Source: a virus. From it: a stretch of 40,135 nucleotides of DNA. Shown here in pieces: positions 1 through 37,304 of the stretch (position 1 is the first letter of the stretch; the number at the start of each line of letters is the position of its first letter). The stretch spans positions 1 through 40,135 of the IMG/VR virus record IMGVR_UViG_3300045922_000567; one strand, written 5' to 3'. The notes under the pieces are model-generated. The model had not been told where the DNA came from and did not search any database. It saw only the letters and a program-made list of their open reading frames with translations. A program made the translations under genes and the position numbers.

Positions 1-6
1 TTGCAC

Positions 7-54
7 TTGCGAAGATCGCAACTTTTCGCTTGAAAAGCGTTGCCACTTTCGCAA
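7..54. promoter_or_regulatory. Immunity operators and early rightward promoter, prophage A
   Basis: Two 15-bp operator-like sites lie upstream of the Cro-like gene. The first, TTGCGAAGATCGCAA at 7-21, is a perfect 6-bp-arm inverted repeat. The second, TTGCCACTTTCGCAA at 40-54, has TTGC/GCAA arms. Between them CTTTTC-GCTT-GAAAAG is a further perfect inverted repeat. A TTGAAA at 30-35 could be a -35 box, with a -10 near TACTCT at 56-61. That would place the transcription start at or next to the cro ATG at 66, giving a leaderless mRNA. The sequence is identical to 35499-35546. Promoter boxes are inference. Confidence 0.7.
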
Positions 55-65
55 CTACTCTGCCC

Positions 66-302
66 ATGGAACCAGCTCGCACGATCATCGAACTCCTGGG
101 CGGATACATGTCTGTCGCGTCCATCACTGGTCGGCACCCGACAAGGGTACTGCGGTGGACCTATCCCCCGGAAAGGGGCGGCACCGGGGGGCTCATCCCT
201 GCCAGATACCAGCAACTCCTTCTGGCACACGCCAGGGCGGTCGGCATCGACCTGCGCCCCGAGCACTTCTTCCCCGGCATCGAGAAAGGACGGGCGGAAT
301 GA
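66..302 (+). CDS. Cro-like HTH protein, prophage A
   Basis: A 78-aa protein starting MEPARTIIELLGGY. A putative helix-turn-helix spans roughly residues 4-28 (IIELLG..SVASITGRHPTRVLRW), followed by a basic/aromatic stretch and a conserved C-terminus ending in HFFPG. It is the first gene of the rightward early operon, immediately behind the operators at 7-54, which is the position of Cro in lambdoid phages. The likely role is DNA-binding repression of the repressor promoter during lytic growth. The ATG at 66 is preferred to an upstream in-frame TTG at 30, which lies inside the promoter. Its stop overlaps the next start (ATGA at 299-302). The near-identical copy in prophage B is at 35558-35794. 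Confidence 0.75.
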   Translation: MEPARTIIELLGGYMSVASITGRHPTRVLRWTYPPERGGTGGLIPARYQQLLLAHARAVGIDLRPEHFFPGIEKGRAE

Positions 303-385
303 TCACGTCAGCATCCCAGACCCTTCCTTCCCGCAAAGCGGCGCCCCGCGTCGGATGCCGGACGGCCGCAGGGGGCCGGACATGA
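299..385 (+). CDS. 28-aa translationally coupled early ORF
   Basis: A very small ORF, MITSASQTLPSRKAAPR..., of 28 codons. Its ATG overlaps the cro stop (ATGA, 299-302) and its own stop TGA (383-385) overlaps the methylase ATG at 382. The same ORF with the same two overlaps exists in prophage B (35791-35877) and differs by one residue (T8A). It may be a basic peptide or only a translational coupler passing ribosomes from cro to the methylase gene. No known family recognised. Confidence 0.5.
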   Translation: MITSASQTLPSRKAAPRVGCRTAAGGRT

Positions 386-1032
386 TGGAAGCTGACCCCA
401 CCCGGCGCCCGCGCGGCGGCCCGGCCGTCCTGTCCCGCCGCCGTGAGCCGGCAGGGGGACTGGACGACTTTCCCACCCCGCCGTGGGCGGTGCGGGCGCT
501 CTGCGAGTGGCTGCAACAGCAGGGACATCGGATCGACAAATGCGCAGTGCGCGAACCGGCGGCGGGGCGCGGGCACATGGCGCGCGCGCTGGGCGAATAC
601 TTCGCGGCGGTGCAGGAGAGCGATGTTCACGCCTACGGGCGCGACGATCTGCAAATCGCTGACTTCCTCGCGGCTTGGTGGCCGTTCGCGGCGTGGACCA
701 TCACCAACCCGCCATTCCGCCTCGCAGAGGATTTCTGTCGCCAGGCGCTTGCGACCTCGCTTGACGGCGTGGCGATGCTGGTGCGGACACAGTTCCTGGA
801 AGGCACCGGCAGGTTCGTCCGCCTGTTCAGCGCGAACCCGCCCAGCGCTGTGCTGCAGTTCGCCGAACGGGTGCCGATGTTGCGCGGGCGGCTCGATCCG
901 GCAGGGTCCACCGCCACGGCCTACTGCTGGCTGGTCTGGGAGCTGCAGCGCGTGCGCTTGGCGCGCGGCACGGCGCTTGTCTGGCTGCCGCCGTGCCGCC
1001 GGCGCCTTGAGCGGGAGGAGGATTACGCATGA
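382..1032 (+). CDS. Phage adenine-methyltransferase-like protein (NPPF motif)
   Basis: A 216-aa protein with two hallmarks of SAM-dependent amino-methyltransferases: a motif-I-like REPAAGRGHMA at about residues 58-68 and a catalytic NPPF tetrapeptide at 109-112 (TNPPFRLAEDF). It is short and shows no obvious target-recognition domain, so it resembles minimal phage N6-adenine methylases with unknown specificity. The probable role is modification of phage DNA. The ATG pair at 382/385 is favoured because GGGGGCCGG lies just upstream and it overlaps the preceding ORF; an ATG at 355 is also in frame. The stop overlaps the next start (ATGA at 1029). The homologue in prophage B (35874-36530) is more diverged than the neighbouring cro gene. 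Confidence 0.72.
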   Translation: MMEADPTRRPRGGPAVLSRRREPAGGLDDFPTPPWAVRALCEWLQQQGHRIDKCAVREPAAGRGHMARALGEYFAAVQESDVHAYGRDDLQIADFLAAWWPFAAWTITNPPFRLAEDFCRQALATSLDGVAMLVRTQFLEGTGRFVRLFSANPPSAVLQFAERVPMLRGRLDPAGSTATAYCWLVWELQRVRLARGTALVWLPPCRRRLEREEDYA

Positions 1033-1982
1033 GCCATGCCGCGACGAACTGGGCGATTCAGCAGCGCGGGCTGCCGCCGGCCACGAAACTGCTGCTGTGG
1101 TATCTGGCGGACCGGCACAATCCGGATTTCGGGTGCTTCCCGTCGCAGGCGCAGCTGGCGCGCGATGCCGAGATGTCACGAGGCTCGGTGAACCGGCACC
1201 TTGACGAGCTTGAAGCGCGGGGCCTGATCCGCCGCGAGCGGCGCGTGGATCCGCGGACGCGGCGGCAGCTGCCGACCCGGTATTTTCTCGCTTTCGAGCC
1301 AGGCTTCGCGTTGCCGGAGGCAGCGGACGCCGAGCCGGAGCCATATCCGGATCCCGGGTTCGGCCAAGGAACGGATGAGGAACATGAAGCCGAGCCGTGT
1401 CTCAAATATGAACACGGGCCGGGCGCGAGCCGTGTCTCAAATCCGGCGAATTCCGTGTCTCACAGCTGTGAGACACTAACCAGTAAGAGAACCGGTAATA
1501 TTGGTGGTGGTGGTGGTGCGCGCGCACGCACGCAGGCGCGAGAGGGCGATCCTCCGGTCGCGCCACGTGATCCGCATCCTCCAGCAGCACAGGATCCGCC
1601 TCCACCAGCAGCACAGGATCCGCCGTCCGCGGCACCCGATCGGACCTTGCGGGAGAAGCTCCTCGAGGCCATGGGCTGCGATCCCGTCTCCGGCCTGACC
1701 GGACCGGCGGGGCGGCGGATCGGAACACCGGCCGACATGGCGCATGTGCGCCGGTGGCTGGATCTGCCGGGCATGGACGAGGCCACCGTGCTGGCCGAGG
1801 TGGCGCGGATCATGGCCGGGAAGCCGGACGGGCCGCCGTCGAGCTTCCGGTACTTCGACCGGGCGATGGAGCGGCTTTCCGGCGCGCTGTCGGCTCCGCC
1901 GCTGTCGCCGCAGGCCCCACTCATCCGCGGCGCGCCGCAGCCGCCGCAACCCGACATCGCCGCGATTCTGGCCAGACTGTGA
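1029..1982 (+). CDS. O-like replication initiation protein with winged HTH
   Basis: A 317-aa protein. The N-terminal ~75 residues form a winged helix-turn-helix of the replication-protein type (LLLWYLADRHNPDFGCFPSQ.QLARDAEMSRGSVNRHLDELEARGLIRRERR). A low-complexity middle follows: an acidic stretch, then GGGGG, then repeats of the type PPxAAQDPP. The conserved C-terminus runs from about residue 205 (LREKLLEAMGCDP...). By analogy with lambda O, it should bind an origin inside its own gene and recruit a helicase loader; the repeat cluster at 1391-1476 supports that. Prophage B keeps only the first few codons here and then diverges completely. Confidence 0.68.
   Translation: MSHAATNWAIQQRGLPPATKLLLWYLADRHNPDFGCFPSQAQLARDAEMSRGSVNRHLDELEARGLIRRERRVDPRTRRQLPTRYFLAFEPGFALPEAADAEPEPYPDPGFGQGTDEEHEAEPCLKYEHGPGASRVSNPANSVSHSCETLTSKRTGNIGGGGGARARTQAREGDPPVAPRDPHPPAAQDPPPPAAQDPPSAAPDRTLREKLLEAMGCDPVSGLTGPAGRRIGTPADMAHVRRWLDLPGMDEATVLAEVARIMAGKPDGPPSSFRYFDRAMERLSGALSAPPLSPQAPLIRGAPQPPQPDIAAILARL
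1391..1476. repeat. Putative phage replication origin: iterons plus 22-bp palindrome
   Basis: The octamer GTGTCTCA occurs at 1397-1404, 1432-1439 and 1455-1462, and in inverted form (TGAGACAC) at 1469-1476. The first two copies sit in a 17-bp direct repeat (CGAGCCGTGTCTCAAAT) spaced 35 bp apart. The last two form a perfect 22-bp palindrome at 1455-1476 (half-site GTGTCTCACAG). A stretch relatively poor in G+C (1474-1504, including GGTAATATTGG) follows. The cluster lies inside the O-like gene, the same arrangement as the lambda and P22 origins. The sequence pattern is seen directly; the origin role is inferred. Confidence 0.66.
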
Positions 1983-3332: not shown

Positions 3333-3904
3333 TGGGAGAGGCGCGGCTGCCCACCGCGCACCAGCGCATCGCCACGCGCGCTCGGCGCGAGCGCATCTGG
3401 CGCTGGGCCACGTCCGAGGACGTGGACCTAGCCCGTCGCTATGCGCATGGCAACTGCCGCGACGGCGCGCCGGCGGTCATGTGGGGCATGCTCTGCTACG
3501 CGGTGCGGGTTTCGGAGCGGGCGGACGGCCCGCTGCCTTGGAGGGGATATCCCGCGGCATCGCCCGGCGCCTGGCTCGCGCCGGACGAGGTCACGTGGTG
3601 GCAGCGGGTGGCGGCCGCCCTTCGCGGCGAAACCGACGGGGTGGTCGAGGGCGACAACCGCCCGCCACCGCCCGAGCGCATCGAGATCCTGCTGCGCGAC
3701 GAGCTCCTGCAGATCTGGCACGGCCACGCGCTGCGCGGTCTGGGCGACTGGCGTCGGTTGCGGAAGGCGGTCTACGCGCTCGCCTGCGGCATCCCGCCCG
3801 GGAAGGTGCAGGCGGAGACGGGCCTGTCGCGCGACCGGCTGCGGCACGCGCGGGACCGTGCGGTCGAGGACATGCTGGTCGTCTGGTCGAGGCCGGGTTC
3901 ATGA
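3332..3904 (+). CDS. Conserved early protein with C-terminal HTH, copy A
   Basis: A 190-aa basic protein. The N-terminus holds a conserved RARRERIWRWATSEDVDLARRYAHGN block, the middle is tryptophan-rich (APDEVTWWQRV) and the C-terminus has a likely helix-turn-helix (PPGKVQAETGLSRDRLRHARDRAVEDML, about residues 152-180). It immediately precedes the packaging genes, the usual place for a late-gene activator or antiterminator, so a late regulator is my best guess. I do not recognise a named family. A close homologue is at 36723-37304 in prophage B, which shows the protein is retained even though the intervening replication genes are not. Confidence 0.68.
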   Translation: MGEARLPTAHQRIATRARRERIWRWATSEDVDLARRYAHGNCRDGAPAVMWGMLCYAVRVSERADGPLPWRGYPAASPGAWLAPDEVTWWQRVAAALRGETDGVVEGDNRPPPPERIEILLRDELLQIWHGHALRGLGDWRRLRKAVYALACGIPPGKVQAETGLSRDRLRHARDRAVEDMLVVWSRPGS

Positions 3905-24615: not shown

Positions 24616-26139
24616 ATGTCCGACACCACGACCCATCTGGGCCTGCCCTATCTCCTAGCAGCGCAGGCGCAGAAGCATGTCACCCACAACGAGGCGCTGC
24701 GCCTGCTCGATGCCATGGTGCAGCTCTCGGTCCTCGACCGCACCCGCACCTCGCCCCCGGCCAGCCCGGCCGACGGCGACCGGCACATCGTGGCCTCGGG
24801 CGCGACGGGGCTCTGGGCAGGGTGGGACCTGAACATCGCCTACCGGGTCGACGGCGCGTGGATCCGGCTGGTGCCGCGCGTGGGCTGGCAGGTCTGGGTT
24901 GGCGATGAGGGGGTGCCGCTGGTCTGGACCGGCAGCGCGTGGCAGGACGTGGCAGATCGCCCGTTGCAGGTGCCGAGGATCGGCGTGAACACCACGTCAG
25001 ATAACACCAACCGCCTCTCGGTCGCCTCTCCTGCAACGCTGCTGAACCACGCGGGCGCGGGCCACCAGCTCAAGATCAACAAGGCCGCCGCGACCGACAC
25101 CGCAAGCCTGCTGTTCCAGACCGGCTTCTCGGGCCGGGCCGAGATGGGCACCGCCGGCACGGACGGCTTTTCGGTGACGGTCAGCGCCGACGGCAGCACC
25201 TGGCACGAGGCGCTGGTGGCCGACCCCGCAACCGGCAGCCTGAGCGCGCCGCAGGGGCTGCGCCTGTCCGACGGCACCGCCGCCGCCCCGGCGCTGTCGT
25301 TCTCCGCCGACCCCGACACCGGGCTCTACCGAGCCGGTGCCGATCAGATCGGAGCGGCCACCGGCGGTGTGCAGCGGTTCCTTCTGTCCACTACCGCGCT
25401 GTCGCTGACCTTGCCCCTGCTGGCTGCGGACGGGACTGCCGCAGCGCCGTCGCTGTCGTTCTCCGCCGATCCCGACACCGGGATATACAGGGCCGGTGGC
25501 GACACGCTCGGGTTCGCGACTGCGGGTGCAATCGTCGGCAGGTTCGACTCGGCCGGCCGGTTCATCGTCGGACCCGGAGCCTCGCAGAACGTCGGCGGCC
25601 AGGGCAGCGCACAAGTCATTGGCGCGGGCGCGCGGTTTGGCCTGCACCGCTTCAATGCAGGGGCAGGGTTCGGCCCTGTCATCGTCCTCTCGCACTCCCG
25701 GTCAAATACCGTCGGGGAAGTCGTCAGCCTGAACTCGGGCGATGCCATCGGGCAGATTCAGTTCTACGGCGCGAGCACCGGCGGGGCCTACGCCATGGGC
25801 GCGGACATCACGGCCTCGGTGGCGGCCACCCCGTCGGGCGGTGACATGCCCGCCCACATCCGCCTGCGCACGACGCCCGTGGGCGGGACGACGCCGACCG
25901 AGCGGGTGCGGATCACATCCGCGGGCGAGGTCGGCATCGGCACCGCATCGCCCACGGCGCCCCTGCACGTCAACGGTGCGGTGCGGGTGGGCAGCTTCAC
26001 CGTCGCCACCGTCCCCTCGGCCAGCGGCATGGGCGCGGGGGCGGTCATCTACGTCTCGAACGAGACGGGCGGCGCGGTGCCGGCCTTCTCGGACGGCACC
26101 AACTGGCGGCGCGTCACCGACCGCGCGATCATTTCCTGA
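24616..26139 (+). CDS. DUF2793 tail fibre protein
   Basis: A 507-aa protein. Residues 1-~110 are a DUF2793 attachment domain (HLGLPYLLAAQAQKHVTHNEALRLLDAMVQLSVLDR..., then WVGDEGVPLVWTGSAWQ). The remainder is a beta-rich fibre: two copies of DGTAAAPxLSFSADPDTGxYRAG about 53 residues apart, then a GIGTASPTAPLHVNGAVRVG segment typical of fibre tips, and FSDGTNWRRVTD at the end. It should be the receptor-binding fibre attached to the megatron. Its stop overlaps an upstream start of the next ORF. Confidence 0.85.
   Translation: MSDTTTHLGLPYLLAAQAQKHVTHNEALRLLDAMVQLSVLDRTRTSPPASPADGDRHIVASGATGLWAGWDLNIAYRVDGAWIRLVPRVGWQVWVGDEGVPLVWTGSAWQDVADRPLQVPRIGVNTTSDNTNRLSVASPATLLNHAGAGHQLKINKAAATDTASLLFQTGFSGRAEMGTAGTDGFSVTVSADGSTWHEALVADPATGSLSAPQGLRLSDGTAAAPALSFSADPDTGLYRAGADQIGAATGGVQRFLLSTTALSLTLPLLAADGTAAAPSLSFSADPDTGIYRAGGDTLGFATAGAIVGRFDSAGRFIVGPGASQNVGGQGSAQVIGAGARFGLHRFNAGAGFGPVIVLSHSRSNTVGEVVSLNSGDAIGQIQFYGASTGGAYAMGADITASVAATPSGGDMPAHIRLRTTPVGGTTPTERVRITSAGEVGIGTASPTAPLHVNGAVRVGSFTVATVPSASGMGAGAVIYVSNETGGAVPAFSDGTNWRRVTDRAIIS
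25270..25504 (+). repeat. Imperfect fibre repeat pair, 159-bp period
   Basis: CGCTGTCGTTCTCCGCCGA begins at 25292 and recurs (last base differing) at 25451; flanking bases also match imperfectly. The two units encode DGTAAAPALSFSADPDTGLYRAG and the near copy with S and I substitutions. The spacing of 159 bp (53 codons) keeps frame, so unit number could change by recombination. Confidence 0.8.
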
Positions 26140-26806: not shown

Positions 26807-28084
26807 GTGGGAAAAACAGTCCCGGGGGGTTGCCGTCATGACCGAGTTCTCCGAGCTGCGCTGCGCCGCGCCGCCGCCCTCGCGCTCAACGACGTGGCGG
26901 CTCTGCTCGGGGTCTCGAAGAGCACCGTCTACCGCTGGGAACATGGCGAGGTCGCAGCCGACGCGGAGGCGCTGACGCGGCTGCGCCGGCTGGGCGAGCC
27001 GCGCCTGCCGCTGGGCGATTTCCGCTTCATCGACCTGTTCGCGGGAATCGGCGGCCTGAGGCGCGGGTTCGATGCCATCGGCGGGCGCTGCGTCTTCACC
27101 TCGGAATGGGATCGCTTCGCGGAGCGGACCTACCGCGCCAACTTCCGTGACGGGCCGGAGCACCGGTTCGAGGGCGACATCACGAGGGTCGATCCGGCTT
27201 CGATTCCGGATCACGACGTGCTTCTGGCGGGCTTTCCGTGCCAGCCCTTCTCGATCGCCGGGGTGTCGAAGAAGAACGCGCTCGGTCGGGCGCACGGCTT
27301 CGCCTGCGACACCCAGGGCACCCTGTTCTTCGACGTCGCCCGGATCATCGAGGCCAAGCGGCCGAAGGTCGTTCTGCTCGAGAACGTCCGGAACCTGCTG
27401 TCGCACGACCGGGGGAACACCTTCCGGGTCATCCGCTCGGTGCTGACCGAGGAGCTTGGCTACCGCATCGATCATCGCGTCATCGATGCGCGCTGCTTCG
27501 TTCCGCAACACCGCGAGCGGATCTTCATCGCGGCCGTGCGCGGCGATCTCGGGCTCGACGTGGACCTGCAGACCATGCAGCTGCCACCGGTCGAAGAGGG
27601 GCCGCGCCTGGGTTCCATCCTGCACCGGGAGGACGGCTCGGAGCATGATCCGCAGTTCCTCGACGAGCACGGCCGCGTGCAGGCGCGCTACACCCTGTCG
27701 GACCACCTCTGGGGCTACCTGCAGGCCTATGCCGAGAAGCATCGCGCCAGGGGCAACGGGTTCGGCTTCGGGCTGACGGGGCCGGACGATGTCGCCCGCA
27801 CGCTCTCGGCCCGCTACCACAAGGACGGCTCCGAGATCCTCGTCGATCAGGGGCCGGGCCGGAACCCCCGTCGCCTGACGCCGCGGGAATGCGCGCATCT
27901 GATGGGCTTCGACCGGCCCGACGGCGCGGACTTCGTGATCCCCGTGTCGGACACCCAGGCCTATCGCCAGTTCGGCAATTCGGTGGTGGTCCCGGTCGTC
28001 ACGGCCGTCGCGCGCCATCTGCGGCCCGTCATCCTGCGCGCGGTCTCGATCGGGCGGGTGCTGGACACGGTCGCCGCGGAGTGA
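26807..28084 (+). CDS. m5C DNA methyltransferase of EcoRII-like R-M system, start disrupted
   Basis: A cytosine-5 methyltransferase with all key motifs: I (FIDLFAGIGGLRRGF), IV with catalytic Cys (GFPCQPFSIAG), VI (LLENVRNLL), VIII (QHRERIFIAAVR), IX (RLTPRECAHLMGFD) and X (YRQFGNSVVVPVV). An N-terminal HTH precedes (LNDVAALLGVSKSTVYRWEHGE). The best start, ATG 26838 (MTEFSELR...), is in the wrong frame because CTGCG is tandemly duplicated at 26856-26865; removing one unit gives MTEFSELRRAAALALNDVAALL. In the sequence as given, only weak starts remain in frame (GTG 26807, TTG 26780). Paired with an EcoRII-like nuclease and Vsr, it probably methylates CCWGG-type sites. Confidence 0.9.
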   Translation: MGKTVPGGCRHDRVLRAALRRAAALALNDVAALLGVSKSTVYRWEHGEVAADAEALTRLRRLGEPRLPLGDFRFIDLFAGIGGLRRGFDAIGGRCVFTSEWDRFAERTYRANFRDGPEHRFEGDITRVDPASIPDHDVLLAGFPCQPFSIAGVSKKNALGRAHGFACDTQGTLFFDVARIIEAKRPKVVLLENVRNLLSHDRGNTFRVIRSVLTEELGYRIDHRVIDARCFVPQHRERIFIAAVRGDLGLDVDLQTMQLPPVEEGPRLGSILHREDGSEHDPQFLDEHGRVQARYTLSDHLWGYLQAYAEKHRARGNGFGFGLTGPDDVARTLSARYHKDGSEILVDQGPGRNPRRLTPRECAHLMGFDRPDGADFVIPVSDTQAYRQFGNSVVVPVVTAVARHLRPVILRAVSIGRVLDTVAAE

Positions 28085-28088
28085 CCGC

Positions 28089-29327
28089 GTGCGCTACGGC
28101 TTCCTCTCCGACCATTTCGTCCGCATCGCCGCAAAGCGGCTGGCCGCTGTGGAGGCCGATACCCGCCGGTCGAACCAGCACGAGTTCAACGGGGTCGAGG
28201 CGCTGCGCAATGTCCTCGGTCCCGAGGAGTTCCGCAACCGCCCTGCCCGGTTCATCCGGCTCAGCGGCGAGAACGAAGCGGTGACGGACACCGCGCCGGT
28301 GTCGTGGTACGACTCCCGCCGCAACCAGCCCCATCGCTCGGCAGAGTGGCGGCTGTACTTCAAGGCGAACGCGGTCATGGAACTGGCCTCGGAGCGCGAC
28401 CTGCTGGTCATCGGCCTGCGGGCGGACGGCGAGATCCTGTTCATCGTCGCTCCCGAGGGTTCGACCCTCGAAAATCAGATCGCCTGGCTCTTCGGCCTTG
28501 ACGGCGAACTGGGCGGCGGGTTCCGCTTTGCCGACTACGAGGGCGGCAACGACCGCGGGCTCGACTTCGTCGCGAATTACATCCTCGAGGAGCTCGGGAT
28601 CGAACCGGCCGAGCCCGAGGCCGATCGCCTCGATCGCATCGTCGCGGACTGGGACGTCGATTTTCCGCCCTCTCGTGAGCTCTCCGCCGCGGCCCGGAAA
28701 CACGCGGGTGCGCCGGACCCGCGCGAGGATCCCGACGGCGCCCTGATGGGGTGGATCGAATTCGAGGAGGCACTGTTCCGCAGGCTCGAGCGGCTGGTGG
28801 TGGCCGAGCGCCTCAGGGCCGGTTTCGTCGCCGCCGGCGAGGCCGATGTCGACGGCTTCCTGTCGTTCTCCCTGTCGGTTCAGAACCGCCGCAAGTCGCG
28901 GATGGGCCTGTCGGTCGAGAACCATGTCGAGGCCATCCTGACCACCTGCGGGATCCGGCACGAGCGCGGCGCGCGGACCGAGGGCAGGAGTCGCCCGGAC
29001 TTCCTGTTTCCCTCATCCGCCGCCTACCATGACCCGGACTTCGACCCGCTGCTTCTGTCGATGCTCGGAGTGAAGTCGACCCTCAAGGACCGGTGGCGTC
29101 AGGTGCTGGCCGAGGCGGCGCGTATCGACCGCAAGCACCTGCTGACCCTCGAGCCGGGGATCTCGGTCGCGCAGACCGACGAGATGGCACGCAACGGCCT
29201 GCAGCTGGTCGTGCCCGCCGGCCTGCATCGGACCTTCACCGGGCCGCAGGCGGCATGGCTCATGGATTTCAAAGAGTTTCTGGAACTGGTCGCCGCCCGG
29301 CAGACGGGGGCAGGCGCTTGCGGATGA
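28089..29327 (+). CDS. EcoRII-family restriction endonuclease
   Basis: A 412-aa protein, near the 404 aa of EcoRII. Residues ~1-180 fit the EcoRII N-terminal effector-binding domain (HEFNGVEALRNVLG, RLYFKANAVMELASERDLLVIGLR). Residues ~272-400 are the catalytic domain: GLSVENHVEAILTTCGIRHERGARTEG, RPDFLFPSSAAYHDP, LGVKSTLKDRWRQVLAEAARIDRKHLLTLEPGIS. Asp304, Tyr313, Lys329, Arg335 and Glu342 match, from memory, EcoRII active-site residues at a constant offset of about five. As a type IIE enzyme it should need two or more sites to cut. GTG start with GGAG upstream. The exact target cannot be read from sequence; CCWGG or CCNGG-like is expected. Confidence 0.9.
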   Translation: MRYGFLSDHFVRIAAKRLAAVEADTRRSNQHEFNGVEALRNVLGPEEFRNRPARFIRLSGENEAVTDTAPVSWYDSRRNQPHRSAEWRLYFKANAVMELASERDLLVIGLRADGEILFIVAPEGSTLENQIAWLFGLDGELGGGFRFADYEGGNDRGLDFVANYILEELGIEPAEPEADRLDRIVADWDVDFPPSRELSAAARKHAGAPDPREDPDGALMGWIEFEEALFRRLERLVVAERLRAGFVAAGEADVDGFLSFSLSVQNRRKSRMGLSVENHVEAILTTCGIRHERGARTEGRSRPDFLFPSSAAYHDPDFDPLLLSMLGVKSTLKDRWRQVLAEAARIDRKHLLTLEPGISVAQTDEMARNGLQLVVPAGLHRTFTGPQAAWLMDFKEFLELVAARQTGAGACG

Positions 29328-32161: not shown

Positions 32162-33190
32162 TCACTTTCCGGTTCCTCCTTCCGTGGCGGTCTGGCGGCG
32201 GCGCTGGGCTGTCCGCGCGCGCTGCTCCTGCCGGGTGGCGCCGGCGTATTTCACGACCATGGCGCGCGCCTTGTGGCCGGTGATGGCCTGAATCTCCTCG
32301 TCGGTGCATCCGGCGGCGGCGAGTTCCGCGGCGGCGGTGTAGCGCCAGCCGTGAATCGTGAACGCCTCCGCCTGCACCGCCTTCCGGACGCGCATGATCT
32401 CGGCCGCCGCGGCGTGGTAGGTCAGCGGCCGGCCGTCGCGTCCGGTCGCGATGGTCAGCCCGCGGCGCGGAAGGGCCGCCAGATAGGCGGCCAGCCGCGG
32501 CGTGAACGGGATCCAGAGCCGCGCCCGCGTCTTCGACTGGCGCAGCTCGATCCCGCCGTCCCGGATGTGATCCCAGCGCATGGCCAGCACATCGCCGATG
32601 CGCTGACCGGTGCCGATGCAGAGCTCCATCACCGTGCGGGCAACGCTCCCCGGCGCGGCGGCCGCCGTGTAGGCCTCGAGCAGTGCGGGCGGCCACGGGC
32701 GGTGGGGCCCGTCGCCTTCGGACCGCAGCAGCGGGATCCCGCGGGCGGGGTTGTGCGTCATCCAGCCCATGTCGATGGCCTGCTCGAAGAGCACGCTCAG
32801 GACCTGGACGATGTAGTTGGCGAAGCGCAGCCGGTCGCGGTTCTCGTCCCGGGCGCGGATCACGTGCCGGCGCTCCATCCGGGACGGGTCGAGGTCGCCG
32901 AAGGTGCCGGCGGCCCAGCTCAGCACCCTGTCGTAGTCGCGCTTCGTGCGCAAAGCGAGCTTCGACCAGCGCGCCGAGGCGCGGTAGGCCCTGATGAGCC
33001 GCCGGAAGGTCCGGCCGGCGGGCTCGGGCACCGGGTGCACGCCCCGTCGGGCGGCGAGGTATTTTTCGAGGAAGTCCGGCGCCGCCTCCGGCGCGGGCAG
33101 CGGGATGCGTTCGCGCCCGCGCTGGAAGTACCAGTAATCGCGGCCTTTGGCGCGTTTGCGGCGCAGGTAGGGCAAATCGGGCCTCTTCAC
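32162..33190 (-). CDS. int: Tyrosine recombinase integrase
   Basis: A 342-aa phage integrase. A SAM-like core-binding domain at about residues 55-150 (TFRRLIRAYRASARWSKLALRTKRDYDRVLSWAA...) is followed by the catalytic domain with Arg197 (GTGQRIGDVL), Lys220, His280 and Arg283 (HGWRYTAA), His306 (GHKAR) and nucleophile Tyr315 (KYAG). GTG 33190 overlaps the stop of the upstream 61-aa gene. It should catalyse integration at the tRNA-Cys site at 26570-26621, about 5.5 kb away, an unusually long distance that holds accessory genes. The matching integrase of prophage A would be left of the window. Confidence 0.95.
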   Translation of the reverse strand: MKRPDLPYLRRKRAKGRDYWYFQRGRERIPLPAPEAAPDFLEKYLAARRGVHPVPEPAGRTFRRLIRAYRASARWSKLALRTKRDYDRVLSWAAGTFGDLDPSRMERRHVIRARDENRDRLRFANYIVQVLSVLFEQAIDMGWMTHNPARGIPLLRSEGDGPHRPWPPALLEAYTAAAAPGSVARTVMELCIGTGQRIGDVLAMRWDHIRDGGIELRQSKTRARLWIPFTPRLAAYLAALPRRGLTIATGRDGRPLTYHAAAAEIMRVRKAVQAEAFTIHGWRYTAAAELAAAGCTDEEIQAITGHKARAMVVKYAGATRQEQRARTAQRRRQTATEGGTGK

Positions 33191-33372
33191 CGGTCGGCCC
33201 GGAAATCGATGGTGTCGAAGGTCCGCGGCCGGGGCGGCTCGGCCTCGGCCAGCGCCTCGATCTCGACACGGCCGTTGCGGTAATCGACGATGACGCGCAC
33301 CTGCCGGGCACCGCCGCGCAGGGTGGCGCGGACGGCGCTCTCGATCTGGGTGCTGCGGATGGTGCTGGTCAT
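33187..33372 (-). CDS. 61-aa protein preceding integrase
   Basis: MTSTIRSTQIESAVRATLRGGARQVRVIVDYRNGRVEIEALAEAEPPRPRTFDTIDFRADR has a strong ribosome site (AAGGAGGCC) and overlaps the integrase start by four bases. The N-terminal helix followed by a strand pair (VRVIVDYRNGRVEIEAL) could fit a small DNA-binding or excisionase-like protein, but no Xis family is recognised. It is the first gene of the leftward integrase operon, right behind the TTGCG operator cluster. Confidence 0.65.
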   Translation of the reverse strand: MTSTIRSTQIESAVRATLRGGARQVRVIVDYRNGRVEIEALAEAEPPRPRTFDTIDFRADR

Positions 33373-33394: not shown

Positions 33395-33451
33395 TTGCGA
33401 AAAGCGCAACCTCCAGTCAAGACCAAAGTTGCGCTCGCAAGTTGGCTTGCG
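33395..33451. promoter_or_regulatory. TTGCG/CGCAA operator cluster at integrase promoter
   Basis: TTGCGAAAAGCGCAA (33395-33409) is a 15-bp inverted repeat of the same type as the immunity operators at 35499-35513. TTGCGCTCGCAA (33429-33440) and a further TTGCG (33447-33451) follow. They lie just upstream of the 61-aa gene that heads the integrase operon, within a 182-bp gene-free stretch (33373-33554). The phage repressor or Cro probably controls integrase here. No clear -35/-10 pair could be assigned. Confidence 0.65.
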
Positions 33452-33554: not shown

Positions 33555-34331
33555 TCAGCCGGTCGCGGCCTGCGCGAGGCTGAAGACGCGAGTCGTCCAG
33601 TCGTCGCCCTGATCATCGACGACGGCCATGGCGAGGCCATGATTGGTCGCACGGTTGAAGCGGCGCTCGGTCACCCGGCCTTTCCGGCGGTCAACCACGG
33701 CGATGACGGGCGAATCGCCCGGCTGCCTGGCCTGATGCTCGACCAGCGCGTCCATGAGACGCAGGTCGCTGCCGGCGGCATAGACCCGGGCGGCCTTCCG
33801 GCCGGTGTCGCGGCGCCGCAGCAGGATGTCCGGGGACCCCGGTTCGTTGGCCGGGGCGGCCTCGACCAGAAGGGCTTCGGGAAGAGAGGCTTCGATGGCG
33901 CGCATCACGTCATCGGCGAAGGAGGCTGCGACGTTTTCGCGGCTGAGGACGAAAAGGTCGCGGGTCCGGACAAGCGCGCTGATGAACCGCAGCGCTGCCG
34001 GTCCGAGCTCGCGCTCGGGTACCGGATCGGTCCGCACGACCAGGTCTGTGTCGTAATGCGCTCCCTCCTGCGCGAGCATGTGCCGGAGCATCCCCTCACG
34101 CGCGGCGGACTTCAGGTCGAAGCCGCGGGCGAGTGCGTTCGGGATGGTGGTGCCGTCATCCTCGAACCTGAACAGCCCCCCCTCGGCCTCGACCAGATAG
34201 AAGTCGAGCGGGTCGCCGTCCGGCAGCCTGAAACCGGTTTCGATGTGATATCCGAGCGGCACCGCGGACACGGTCAGCGGTGCGCAGAGCTCGCTGCGCA
34301 GTCTGCCGATCAGGGTTTCGGGTCCGATCAA
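33555..34331 (-). CDS. DUF1828-like protein of lysogenic cassette
   Basis: A 258-aa protein starting at TTG 34331, supported by GGAGGAG eight bases upstream and by a TTGA overlap with the preceding stop. The N-terminal half (LCAPLTVSAVPLGYHIETGFRLPDGDPLDFYLVEAEGGLFRFEDDGTTIPNALARGFDL) matches DUF1828 proteins. The C-terminal half (TRDLFVLSRENVAASFADDVMRAIEAS..., SPVIAVVDRRKGRVTERRFNRATNHGLAMAVVDD) resembles DUF1829-type extensions and could be nuclease-like, though no catalytic motif is certain. It is the last gene of the repressor operon, so expected to be made in the lysogen. Function unknown. Confidence 0.72.
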   Translation of the reverse strand: MIGPETLIGRLRSELCAPLTVSAVPLGYHIETGFRLPDGDPLDFYLVEAEGGLFRFEDDGTTIPNALARGFDLKSAAREGMLRHMLAQEGAHYDTDLVVRTDPVPERELGPAALRFISALVRTRDLFVLSRENVAASFADDVMRAIEASLPEALLVEAAPANEPGSPDILLRRRDTGRKAARVYAAGSDLRLMDALVEHQARQPGDSPVIAVVDRRKGRVTERRFNRATNHGLAMAVVDDQGDDWTTRVFSLAQAATG

Positions 34332-34846
34332 ACGTCCATCTCCTCCTGTATCGCCAGGCCGTCGACTCTGAAGAAACGGGCCGCGGAATGGCAGAACCGC
34401 GCCCGCGTCCATACGGTGCGGCGCCGGCGTCGCATGCCGTGGTCCGGCAGAGTATAGGCCATGTCGAGGCTTTCGGCACCGGTCAAGTCGGGATTTCTGT
34501 CGCAGTTGGCGTGAATGTGCAGCCCTCCACCGCGGCCGCCAGGCTGATCCTCGAACCGGATCAGGGCCCGGCACCGCCCGGCGTCGGTAACTTCCACCAG
34601 TACCGCCTTCCATTTGCCGCGGCTGGGGTCCACTTCGAAGAACCGCCGGTACTTGCGCGACGTCGGCGTGGACAGGGCGAGGCTGCGCCATTGCCAGCCG
34701 GCAGGACAAGGCCGTGTCTCGGGGTACGGGCCGAAGCGCGGGGTGATCTGGTCGGATCGCCATCCGCTGTCGGAGGTCATGGTCTTGCGGCTCAGCAGGT
34801 GATGCCGGACGGCTGACAGCCTGACGGGGCGCGGAGCCGGGGCCAT
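34328..34846 (-). CDS. 172-aa partner gene in lysogenic cassette
   Basis: MAPAPRPVRLSAVRHHLLSRKTMTSDSGWRSDQITPRFGPYPETRPCPAGWQWRSLALSTPTSRKYRRFFEVDPSRGKWKAVLVEVTDAGRCRALIRFEDQPGG... It is a basic, beta-rich protein with a GLHIHANCDRNPDLTGAESLDMAYTLPDHG segment. Its ATG overlaps the repressor stop by one base, and its stop overlaps the TTG of the DUF1828-like gene. Tight coupling of all three suggests co-expression from the repressor promoter. I do not recognise the family with confidence; gene pairs of this build are found in phages and resemble toxin-antitoxin or exclusion pairs. Confidence 0.68.
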   Translation of the reverse strand: MAPAPRPVRLSAVRHHLLSRKTMTSDSGWRSDQITPRFGPYPETRPCPAGWQWRSLALSTPTSRKYRRFFEVDPSRGKWKAVLVEVTDAGRCRALIRFEDQPGGRGGGLHIHANCDRNPDLTGAESLDMAYTLPDHGMRRRRRTVWTRARFCHSAARFFRVDGLAIQEEMDV

Positions 34847-35463
34847 CAGACCTTTCTCCCGTACCAGAGCACTCTGCCGATCACCTCGATCTCGGACCGG
34901 TCCATCTCGACCGGCGGGTAGATGCGGTTGTCGCTGATCACCTGAACCGTGAGCCTGGATCGGCCCCGTCCGACCCGCTTGCAGTGCAGGGCCTCGCCGA
35001 AGCGGAGCACGAACAGACCGTCATCGTCGAGGCTGGTCCTGGTGCGGTCGATCAGCACGATGTCGTTGTCGCGCAGCGTCGGTTCCATGCTGTCGCCGCG
35101 GATGCGGATCGCCGCGAGGTCGCGCCCGCGGGCGGTTGTCATCTCGGACAGGTAGCGCGGCGAGAAGGCGAGGTTGGCGATGTGTTCCTCGAAATCCACG
35201 ATCCGGCCCGGCCCGGCGCCCGCCTCGACATTGTAGACCGGCACGAGGGTCAGGTCAGACGCACCTTCAGAATGCTGCATCTGCTGCTGGCGCTGAAAGA
35301 AGGCAATCACGCGCGGCACCTCGCTGGCCTGCACGCGACGTGTGCCGGAGAGGATCTTGGTCAGCTTGTCCGGTGTGATCCCGATGACCTCGGCAAGTTC
35401 GGCCTGCTCTCCGTGCCGGCCGGTCAGGCGCGCCTTGATCCAGTCTGCATCCACATGGTCCAT
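34846..35463 (-). CDS. Phage repressor, HTH plus S24 (LexA/CI-type) peptidase
   Basis: A 205-aa repressor. The N-terminal HTH is at about residues 20-41 (QAELAEVIGITPDKLTKILSGTRRV), the cleavage-site Ala81-Gly82 in VEAGAG, and the S24 domain has Ser125 (GDSMEP) and Lys162 (LHCKRV), the self-cleavage dyad. RecA-stimulated autoproteolysis should induce the prophage after DNA damage. The start at 35463 (MDHVDADWIK) is chosen because upstream in-frame codons run through the operators. No Shine-Dalgarno precedes it, so the message may be leaderless like lambda cI. It heads a three-gene lysogenic operon. Confidence 0.92.
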   Translation of the reverse strand: MDHVDADWIKARLTGRHGEQAELAEVIGITPDKLTKILSGTRRVQASEVPRVIAFFQRQQQMQHSEGASDLTLVPVYNVEAGAGPGRIVDFEEHIANLAFSPRYLSEMTTARGRDLAAIRIRGDSMEPTLRDNDIVLIDRTRTSLDDDGLFVLRFGEALHCKRVGRGRSRLTVQVISDNRIYPPVEMDRSEIEVIGRVLWYGRKV

Positions 35464-35498
35464 GCTTGCAGTGGTGCGGAAAACGCAGCAGTTTGCAC

Positions 35499-35546
35499 TT
35501 GCGAAGATCGCAACTTTTCGCTTGAAAAGCGTTGCCACTTTCGCAA
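35499..35546. promoter_or_regulatory. Immunity operators between repressor and cro, prophage B
   Basis: TTGCGAAGATCGCAA at 35499-35513 is a perfect 15-bp operator-like palindrome and TTGCCACTTTCGCAA at 35532-35546 is a related one. CTTTTC-GCTT-GAAAAG lies between them. A TTGAAA at 35522-35527 is a candidate -35 for rightward transcription, with a -10 near 35548-35553, next to the cro ATG at 35558. The divergent repressor gene starts 36 bp to the left. Together they form a genetic switch. The sites recur at the integrase promoter. Confidence 0.75.
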
Positions 35547-35557
35547 CTACTCTGCCC

Positions 35558-35794
35558 ATGGAACCAGCTCGCACGATCATCGAACTCCTGGGCGGATACA
35601 TGTCTGTCGCGTCCATCACCGGTCGGCACCCGACAAGGGTACTGCGGTGGACCTATCCCCCGGAAAGGGGCGGCACCGGGGGGCTCATCCCTGCCAGATA
35701 CCAGCAACTCCTTCTGGCACACGCCAGGGCGGCCGGCATCGACCTGCGCCCCGAGCACTTCTTCCCCGGCATCGAGGAAGGACCGGCGGAATGA
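35558..35794 (+). CDS. Cro-like HTH protein, prophage B
   Basis: A 78-aa copy of the protein at 66-302, differing at three residues (V57A in HARAVGIDL and two near the C-terminus, IEKGRAE to IEEGPAE). It follows the operators and diverges from the repressor gene, the classical cro position. The stop overlaps the next small ORF (ATGA at 35791). Conservation of the HTH between the two prophages, with identical operators, indicates the same immunity type. Confidence 0.76.
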   Translation: MEPARTIIELLGGYMSVASITGRHPTRVLRWTYPPERGGTGGLIPARYQQLLLAHARAAGIDLRPEHFFPGIEEGPAE

Positions 35795-35877
35795 TCACGT
35801 CAGCATCCCAGGCCCTTCCTTCCCGCAAGGCGGCGCCCCGCGTCGGATGCCGGACGGCCGCAGGGGGCCGGACATGA
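35791..35877 (+). CDS. 28-aa coupled early ORF, prophage B copy
   Basis: Same length and same overlaps as 299-385: ATGA with cro at 35791-35794, and TGA 35875-35877 overlapping the methylase ATG at 35874. One residue differs (T8A). Conservation of frame and overlaps supports translation, although a pure coupling role cannot be excluded. Confidence 0.5.
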   Translation: MITSASQALPSRKAAPRVGCRTAAGGRT

Positions 35878-36530
35878 TGGAAGCTGACCCCACCCGGCGC
35901 CCGCGCGGCGGCCCGGCCGTCATGTCCCGCCGCCGCGAACCGGCAGGGGGACTGGACGACTTTCCGACCCCGCCATGGGCGGTGCGAGCGCTCTGCGAAT
36001 GGCTTCGCCGGCAGGGCCATCGGACTAGGGAATGCGCGGTGCGCGAACCGGCGGCGGGGCGCGGCCACATGGCGCGCGCGCTCGGCGAATACTTCGCGGC
36101 GGTGCAGGAGAGCGACGTTCACGACTACGGGCGGGACGACCTGCGCATCGCGGATTTCCTTGCGGACGAGTGGCCGGTCGCGGCGTGGACCATCACCAAC
36201 CCGCCGTTCCGCCTCGCAGAGGATTTCTGTCGCCAGGCGCTCGCGACATCGCTTGACGGCGTGGCGATGTTGGTGCGGACGCAGTTCCTGGAAGGCACCG
36301 GCAGGTTCGTCCGCCTGTTCAGTGTGAAACGGCCCAGCGCGGTGCTGCAGTTCGTTGAGCGGGTGCCGATGGTCCGCGGGCGTCTCGATCCGACAGCGTC
36401 TACTGCCACGTCCTACTGCTGGCTGGTCTGGGAGTTGGAGTTGCGGCGCGTGGACCCGACGCCCGGTACGGCGTTTGTCTGGCTGCCGCCGTGCCGCCGG
36501 CGGCTCGAGCGGGAGGGAGATTACGCATGA
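35874..36530 (+). CDS. Adenine-methyltransferase-like protein, prophage B
   Basis: A 218-aa homologue of 382-1032 with the same REPAAGRGHMA and TNPPF motifs. Differences cluster in the segment before motif I (RRQGHRTRECAVREP against QQQGHRIDKCAVREP), in the linker to NPPF (DYGRDDLRIADFLADEWPV) and near the C-terminus, where it has two extra residues (LELRRVDPTPGTAF). If these regions contact DNA, the two prophages might differ in methylation specificity. The stop overlaps the next ATG (36527-36530), which now opens only a remnant. Confidence 0.72.
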   Translation: MMEADPTRRPRGGPAVMSRRREPAGGLDDFPTPPWAVRALCEWLRRQGHRTRECAVREPAAGRGHMARALGEYFAAVQESDVHDYGRDDLRIADFLADEWPVAAWTITNPPFRLAEDFCRQALATSLDGVAMLVRTQFLEGTGRFVRLFSVKRPSAVLQFVERVPMVRGRLDPTASTATSYCWLVWELELRRVDPTPGTAFVWLPPCRRRLEREGDYA

Positions 36531-36589
36531 GCCATGCGGCGACGAACCGGGATGTCCGACCGCGCCTCATGCCCGCCATCGAAGTTTTC

Positions 36590-36722: not shown

Positions 36723-37304
36723 ATGATCAGCCTGCCGAAACCCCACCCGCCTGCGGACGTCGCCATCGCCACGCGTGCGCGCCGCGAGCGCATCTGGCGC
36801 TGGGCCACATCCGAGGACGTGGCTCTGGCCTCCCGCTACGCGCATGGAAACAGGCGCGTGGACAACAATGCCGCGGTGATGTGGGGCATGCTCTGCCACG
36901 CCGTCCGGGTGTCCGCGGCAGCCGATCCGGCGCCGCCCCGTGCGGGCTATCCGTCGGCATCGCCGGGCGCATGGCTCGCGCCGGACGAGGTCACGTGGTG
37001 GCAGCGGATGGCCGCCGCACTGCGCGGCGAAACGGATGGAGTTGTCGAGACCGACAACCGCCCGCCACCGCCCGAGCGCATCGAGATCATGCTTCGCGAT
37101 GAGGTCCTGCAGATCTGGCACGGCCACGCGCTGCGCGGTCTGGGCGACTGGCGCCGCCTGCGCAAAGCCGTCTACGCGCTCGCCTGCGGCGTCCCGCCCG
37201 GGCGGGTGCAGGCGGAGACCGGCCTCAGTCGCGACCGCCTGCGCCACGCGCGCGACCGCGCTGTGGCCGACATGCTGGCGGCCTGGTCGGGAAGGGAGGC
37301 GTGA
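36723..37304 (+). CDS. Conserved early protein with C-terminal HTH, copy B
   Basis: A 193-aa homologue of 3332-3904: RARRERIWRWATSEDVALASRYAHGN, AVMWGMLCHAVRVS, GAWLAPDEVTWWQRM, PPPERIEIMLRDEVLQIWHGHALRGLGDWRRLRKAVYALACG, then the HTH PPGRVQAETGLSRDRLRHARDRA. ATG 36723 is assumed because homology to copy A begins shortly after it. The frame is open upstream through the Pro-rich repeat to ATG 36552, so a ~250-aa form is possible. Here the gene is not followed by terminase but by a recombination/replication module, which argues against a strictly packaging-linked role. Confidence 0.68.
   Translation: MISLPKPHPPADVAIATRARRERIWRWATSEDVALASRYAHGNRRVDNNAAVMWGMLCHAVRVSAAADPAPPRAGYPSASPGAWLAPDEVTWWQRMAAALRGETDGVVETDNRPPPPERIEIMLRDEVLQIWHGHALRGLGDWRRLRKAVYALACGVPPGRVQAETGLSRDRLRHARDRAVADMLAAWSGREA

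Follow-up and report, generated by a model that had tools for sequence, protein, structure and literature searches.

A repressor-coupled DUF1828 gene pair of a temperate phage as a candidate toxin–antitoxin-type defence module

A stretch of viral DNA of 40,135 nucleotides (the window), whose carrier is best explained as a temperate Rhodobacterales-type phage, contains two genes directly behind its repressor gene, encoding a basic 172-aa protein (P0002) and an acidic 258-aa DUF1828 protein (P0001). With moderate confidence, this pair is proposed to be a two-gene, lysogen-expressed defence system of the toxin–antitoxin type, in which the 172-aa effector would be restrained by the DUF1828 protein and freed by infection. 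The occurrence of the pair in the same slot of prophages of very different bacteria, and beside restriction enzymes, suggests that it probably protects the host; it is thus probably a little-known means by which a dormant virus shields its host from other viruses. DUF1828 has been without a function so far, although well-known phages, such as Lactobacillus phage Lj965 and Staphylococcus phage 37, carry it between repressor and integrase. Its constant pairing with a small protein containing K, R and HxH residues, together with a chaperone-plus-endonuclease-like architecture, provides a testable toxin–antitoxin or defence hypothesis for these anonymous lysogeny genes and hints at what many prophages may offer their hosts.

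Gene layout and coupling to the repressor

The minus strand of the window encodes, in this order, an S24 repressor, the 172-aa protein, the DUF1828 protein, a 61-aa protein (p61) and a tyrosine integrase. The CI-like repressor (34846–35463, 205 aa), the first gene of the operon, most likely starts at the ATG at 35463, and its matches to Peptidase_S24 (E=5e-18) and phrog_4 (E=1e-37) confirm the identity originally predicted. Coordinates, lengths and strand had also been given correctly for the 172-aa gene (34328–34846) and the DUF1828 gene (33555–34331), the latter with a TTG start. Stop-to-start overlaps had been predicted at both junctions. At the second, the 172-aa stop and the DUF1828 start indeed share the four nucleotides TTGA (34328–34331), preceded by AGGAGGAG and thus with AGGAGG upstream of the overlap, but the first is a TGATG (34844–34848) in which the TGA stop and the ATG start have a single A in common, at 34846, and not the predicted 4-nt ATGA. 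These overlapping codons would couple the pair to the readout of the repressor.

The same gene order, with 74–85% identity to the window, is present in Tabrizicola L002, where both gene overlaps are retained. Between the two sequences, dN/dS is 0.21 for the 172-aa gene and 0.13 for the DUF1828 gene, and the differences in both fall mostly on codon position 3, indicating that both are real genes under purifying selection. The N-terminal DNA-binding part of the repressor (35463–35250) is unrelated to its counterpart in L002 (2913–3290), and residues 72–205 are 87% identical, a pattern indicating that DNA-binding specificity was exchanged next to a pair that stayed conserved. The lysogeny module is further marked by the neighbouring integrase (32162–33187; PF00589, E=1e-17). 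Directly before it, in the window as in L002, sits the conserved p61 (MTSTIRSTQIESAVRATLRGG...; 33187–33372), which lies outside the pair, belongs to no family, has a dN/dS of about 0.22 and is possibly an excisionase or an integrase accessory protein.

A palindrome search of the window revealed an operator-like palindrome upstream of the repressor (TTGCGAAGATCGCAA, 35499–35513), a second one with one mismatch (TTGCCACTTTCGCAA, 35532–35546), and the same palindrome again beyond the pair, shortly before the p61 and integrase genes (TTGCGAAAAGCGCAA, 33395–33409). The palindrome TTGCGNNNNNCGCAA is present at exactly three positions of the window (7, 35499 and 33395). The copy at 35499 precedes the repressor and that at 33395 separates the pair from the integrase; these positions place the pair within the transcription unit of the repressor and give the integrase its own repressor-type site. 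Another short motif is common to the same two regions, before the repressor and before p61/integrase, in L002. From this layout we infer that the pair is expressed in the lysogen: a resident prophage would make both proteins with its lytic and integration genes switched off.

The operator palindrome is also carried by a duplicated early region: window positions 1–1053 and 35493–36551 (92% identical), as well as 3367–3889 and 36764–37289 (84%), are divergent copies of an early-control/early-gene region, after which the left copy enters terminase genes and the right copy an ATPase gene. The duplication may reflect related prophages in tandem or an assembly of mixed strains.

Pairing, co-divergence and genomic neighbourhoods

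Co-occurrence of the two families, named beforehand as the point on which the original prediction could fall, was observed, and a small gene precedes every DUF1828 gene checked that had upstream DNA, those of the window and L002 included. A search for DUF1828 among 398 Pseudomonadota and 395 Rhodobacteraceae genomes found it in 11 genomes per sample, and 20 regions were read. A gene for 130–175 aa lies immediately upstream of DUF1828 in all 18 chromosomal or prophage loci with enough upstream sequence, overlapping it in most of them, and likewise upstream in five of five further virus contigs (L049, L050, L051, L053, L055). The small gene also directly precedes DUF1828 in ten of ten deposited phage or satellite records; in satellite Javan357 the partner gene is present but unannotated. 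The upstream partner looks frameshifted in L029, and L037 has a truncated DUF1828 gene; both would be decaying copies or the result of sequencing errors.

Relatives were obtained only from a genome scan with P0002 and from alignments; single-sequence searches with P0001 or P0002 in viral contigs, phages and plasmids gave no matches, and no counterpart of the L030 pair was found in E. coli. When 296 Rhodobacteraceae were searched with a first-gene profile, five strong matches, all adjacent to DUF1828, and a single weak one containing an internal stop were obtained, so that this sample shows no clear orphan member of the family. As four of the five strong matches had fed the profile, this result speaks for the absence of orphans and not for independent co-occurrence. 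The weak partner-like matches L006, L007 and L090 contain internal stops and were treated as chance.

The distance matrix of the first gene correlates with that of the DUF1828 gene at r=0.89 (31 pairs) and r=0.92 (8 alphaproteobacterial phage loci), values that partly reflect shared ancestry, as compared with 0.55–0.57 for either gene against the repressor. A basic partner (pI 8.7–11.3; 10.7 for P0002) is combined with an acidic DUF1828 protein (pI 4.6–5.5; 5.2 for P0001) in 14 of 14 alphaproteobacterial pairs, a pattern that fails in several Firmicutes, Acinetobacter and archaeal-virus pairs. On these sequence comparisons, the 172-aa and DUF1828 genes are a real unit.

This evidence can also be read as a two-component defence, in which both proteins are required, neither is toxic alone, and the DUF1828 protein serves as sensor and the 172-aa protein as effector. 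The defence-related context fits this reading as well as it fits a toxin–antitoxin system. DS-5, a validated system composed of a PIN nuclease and a DUF5830 protein, loses defence upon deletion of the partner without showing unrestrained toxicity (PMC13092281), and the small gene is first in all loci, whereas the toxin is second in most TumE systems (PMC10584680). The strong 4-nt coupling and the basic/acidic alphaproteobacterial pairs are, however, usual marks of toxin–antitoxin systems, which makes this reading rather unlikely.

The original prediction that the pair rides with the repressor holds for 15 of 18 phage or prophage loci, in which the repressor is upstream on the same strand. These loci come from Gram-negative and Gram-positive hosts and comprise the window, L002, L049, L050, L051, L053, L055, L038, Rhizobium RHph_N28_2, Acinetobacter Acba_11, Lactobacillus Lj965, Staphylococcus 37, Staphylococcus phiSP119-3, Streptococcus Javan197 and Streptococcus MissF. 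Among the other three, Halorubrum Humcor1 does not have this arrangement, and Javan357 and Latilactobacillus P3 were not counted as having it. Elsewhere, the pair is found inside type I restriction–modification (R-M) operons (L030, L040), or it adjoins type I R-M genes (L034), MmeI-type enzymes (L032, L033, L042), Mrr (L039) or DUF6079 and a DNA methylase (L029); the chromosomal copies L035, L036, L041 and L046 are far from defence genes. The pair would not be the sole defence in the window, which also contains a type II R-M pair at 26894–29327, 4 kb away, in which a C5 methyltransferase, bearing an HTH-like stretch at its N-terminus, accompanies a restriction enzyme whose catalytic domain is EcoRII-C. 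In addition, a late, probably tail, gene carries a direct repeat of about 86 bases (25258–25343 and 25417–25502, 83% identical).

The frequent location within or next to R-M genes of the type I and MmeI kinds (six loci: L030, L032, L033, L034, L040, L042) and the nearby type II pair of the window would also suit an accessory or safety module for R-M, controlling or policing restriction systems as antirestriction for the phage or as backup killing when restriction is blocked, with no stand-alone defence. This is distinctly unlikely, as most phage loci have no adjacent R-M gene and the varied R-M types speak against a specific interaction. Still less probable is a role in lysogeny regulation, with the pair supplying the repressor or the integrase with an additional regulator or a maturation factor. 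Such a role would agree with the fact that phages from several bacterial groups constantly place the pair between their repressor and integrase genes, but the same pair also occurs inside restriction operons away from prophages, the distances of either gene mirror those of the other far better than those of the repressor, and domain and profile model searches found no DNA-binding domain in either protein. Superinfection exclusion of the membrane type, as in Sie and Rex, was a further reading that was considered.

Predicted folds and proposed mode of action

The assignment of P0001 to DUF1828, part of the original prediction, is borne out by a PF08861 match above the cut-off (E=1.8e-10; 41.4 bits against a gathering cut-off of 22), and the protein also matches PADLOC PDC-M24B (PDLC04539; E=6.9e-14). 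A Pfam search detected no DUF1829 (PF08862) in its C-terminal half, where the homologous DUF1828 protein L041 does carry this domain. The AlphaFold model of P0001 (mean pLDDT 84.5, pTM 0.52) contains two domains. Residues 1–130 adopt a predicted secretion-chaperone/YbjN-like fold, with VIA matches at Z 7.5–9.5 to PA14_16140, Spa15 (9.4), InvB (8.3) and YbjN (7.5). For residues 130–258 a restriction-endonuclease-like fold, comparable to the PD-(D/E)xK core, is tentatively predicted, with VIA matches at Z 7.6–9.5 to BsaWI (Z 9.5, rmsd 3.1 over 126), Can2 (8.8), MunI and BstEII; the best of these is only modestly above the Z of about 7 reached by small GTPases, which were set aside as background for alpha/beta domains, and Foldseek alone gave no significant match. 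D168 is kept in 32 of 35 DUF1828 sequences, which contain no conserved ExK or other acidic–lysine pair after it, so that the domain appears to be inactive as an endonuclease. A DUF1828 effector nuclease regulated by the 172-aa protein is therefore barely credible despite the BsaWI-, Can2-, MunI- and BstEII-like fold and the conserved D168, as no catalytic partner of D168 is conserved and the conserved K/R/E/H set belongs to the 172-aa protein instead.

No Pfam, PHROGs or NCBIfam family includes P0002, which matches neither PDC-M24A in PADLOC at E values up to 10 nor the DUF6978 and TumE (PF20126) models; a PADLOC methylase match (E=0.04) is at chance level. Its relatives in L049, L055, L035, L046, L051 and L076 match no PDC-M24A or DUF6978 model either, and sequence searches found no PDB relatives of P0002 or P0001. 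Conserved in P0002 are K21, W29, W53, R97-x-E99, G108 and H110-x-H112. In a joint, and forced, alignment with the DUF6978 group, 29 of 30 sequences from both groups retain K21, R97, H110 and H112; the corresponding profile comparison (E=0.01, reversed controls 0.2) is not significant. The occupation of the PDC-M24A slot with K...R...HxH residues but without a model match identifies P0002 as a probable divergent variant.

The AlphaFold2 model of P0002 shows a helix (residues 10–18), six antiparallel strands and a C-terminal helix (148–158), with a core pLDDT of about 90 and low values in loops. R97/E99 and H110/H112 are located on neighbouring strands, and K21 at the first strand. The fold has no match in the PDB (best Foldseek E=0.18; best VIA Z 5.1). 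Among viral models, the best match is A0A8S5NGZ0, an uncharacterised 154-aa siphovirus protein (E=0.011, probability 1.00, TM 0.5), which is possibly a DUF6978 protein. Structure prediction had been suggested to look for nuclease or antitoxin folds in the pair; the models give the DUF1828 protein a chaperone-like N-domain and an endonuclease-like C-domain lacking ExK, and no nuclease fold was found for the 172-aa protein.

For the proposed toxin–antitoxin-type defence, these models suggest the following sequence of events. The 172-aa effector, a small beta-sheet protein with K21, R97, E99, H110 and H112 on its sheet strands, would most likely act as an RNase-like, translation-blocking toxin distantly similar to TumE/DUF6978. 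The acidic DUF1828 protein may bind and restrain it via the chaperone-like N-domain, and the C-domain, seemingly devoid of activity, may respond to DNA or to a signal of infection. When a second phage infects, or when a restriction system nearby fails, the effector would then be freed and the infection halted.

Comparison with known systems

Like type II toxin–antitoxin systems, the pair is bicistronic, with overlapping and mutually obligate genes. RptR was compared on the basis of its paper and judged unrelated. HipAD/DS-6, a validated antiphage system, combines a HipA kinase with a DUF3037–DUF1829 protein (PMC13092281). It shares the two-gene toxin–antitoxin-like design, and its partner carries DUF1829, the domain that makes up the C-terminal half in L041 and similar DUF1828 proteins, but the HipA kinase toxin is unrelated to the 172-aa protein and P0001 has no DUF1829 HMM match. 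The TY-chaperones, peptide-binding chaperones of the type III secretion/YbjN kind, are components of conflict systems (Iyer et al. 2022, PMC9503650), in a paper that does not mention DUF1828. The DUF1828 N-domain aligns with the same Spa15, InvB and YbjN structures, but the protein lies outside the TY-Chap1–3 families and is fused to an endonuclease-like domain.

TumE (DUF6516/PF20126) has been proven to be a toxin that blocks translation, and it occurs with diverse partners (Durairaj et al. 2023, PMC10584680). The window pair shares with TumE–TumA the bicistronic organization, an R-(Y/F)-(D/E)...G.HxH motif, a predicted alpha plus antiparallel-beta topology with a helix at each end and, as reported for TumE (PMC10584680), the absence of a PDB match. 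TumE has two helices on a seven-stranded antiparallel sheet, compared with two helices and six strands in the P0002 model. In contrast to TumE, the effector candidate has 172 instead of about 95 aa and no TumE model match, the gene order is opposite to that of most TumE clusters, where the toxin gene is second (PMC10584680), and the partner is DUF1828 rather than a small DNA-binding antitoxin. The DUF6978 protein L080 also matches TumE, below the cut-off (E=0.0028). Direct TumE homology of the 172-aa family was not significant (hhalign probability 4% with the phage set; TumE profiles reach P0002 at E about 0.2), and a superfamily of TumE, DUF6978 and P0002 is plausible. More tentatively, the 172-aa family might be a new alphaproteobacterial branch of a TumE/DUF6978 toxin superfamily, combined with an antitoxin, built from a chaperone and a dead endonuclease, that detects incoming phage DNA or the breakdown of restriction; this phage-borne abortive defence would have been disseminated among Proteobacteria and Firmicutes in one common lysogeny slot, and an archaeal virus would carry pairs related to it.

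The closest known system is a database candidate. The original prediction proposed an undescribed defence or toxin–antitoxin system, and context and fold fit such a module; 'undescribed' is too strong, because PADLOC-DB already lists DUF6978 plus DUF1828 as candidate PDC-M24 (PDC-M24A, DUF6978/PF22398; PDC-M24B, DUF1828/PF08861). PDCs as a class are mostly unvalidated (PMC12988326), and a literature search found no paper naming PDC-M24 and no data on its toxicity, neutralisation, binding or phage resistance. Nor did the literature searched describe the 172-aa first-gene family, the conserved lysogeny slot or the DUF1828 architecture as read here. The first gene of L030 encodes a DUF6978 (E=2e-44) and PDC-M24A (E=2e-56) protein, as do those of the Firmicutes and archaeal-virus pairs. 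In agreement with PDC-M24, the second gene of the window pair matches PDC-M24B, the genes are adjacent on one strand with the small one first, order, sizes and overlap are the same, lysogeny and R-M contexts recur, and the K, R and HxH residues of the first gene align. Unlike PDC-M24, the first gene of the window has no PDC-M24A, DUF6978 or PHROG match, and its alphaproteobacterial family has its own W29, W53 and R-x-E residues. By its sequence, the window pair is therefore classed as a relative or variant of PDC-M24 and not as a member, adding to this candidate a divergent first-gene family of a kind that current defence finders overlook.
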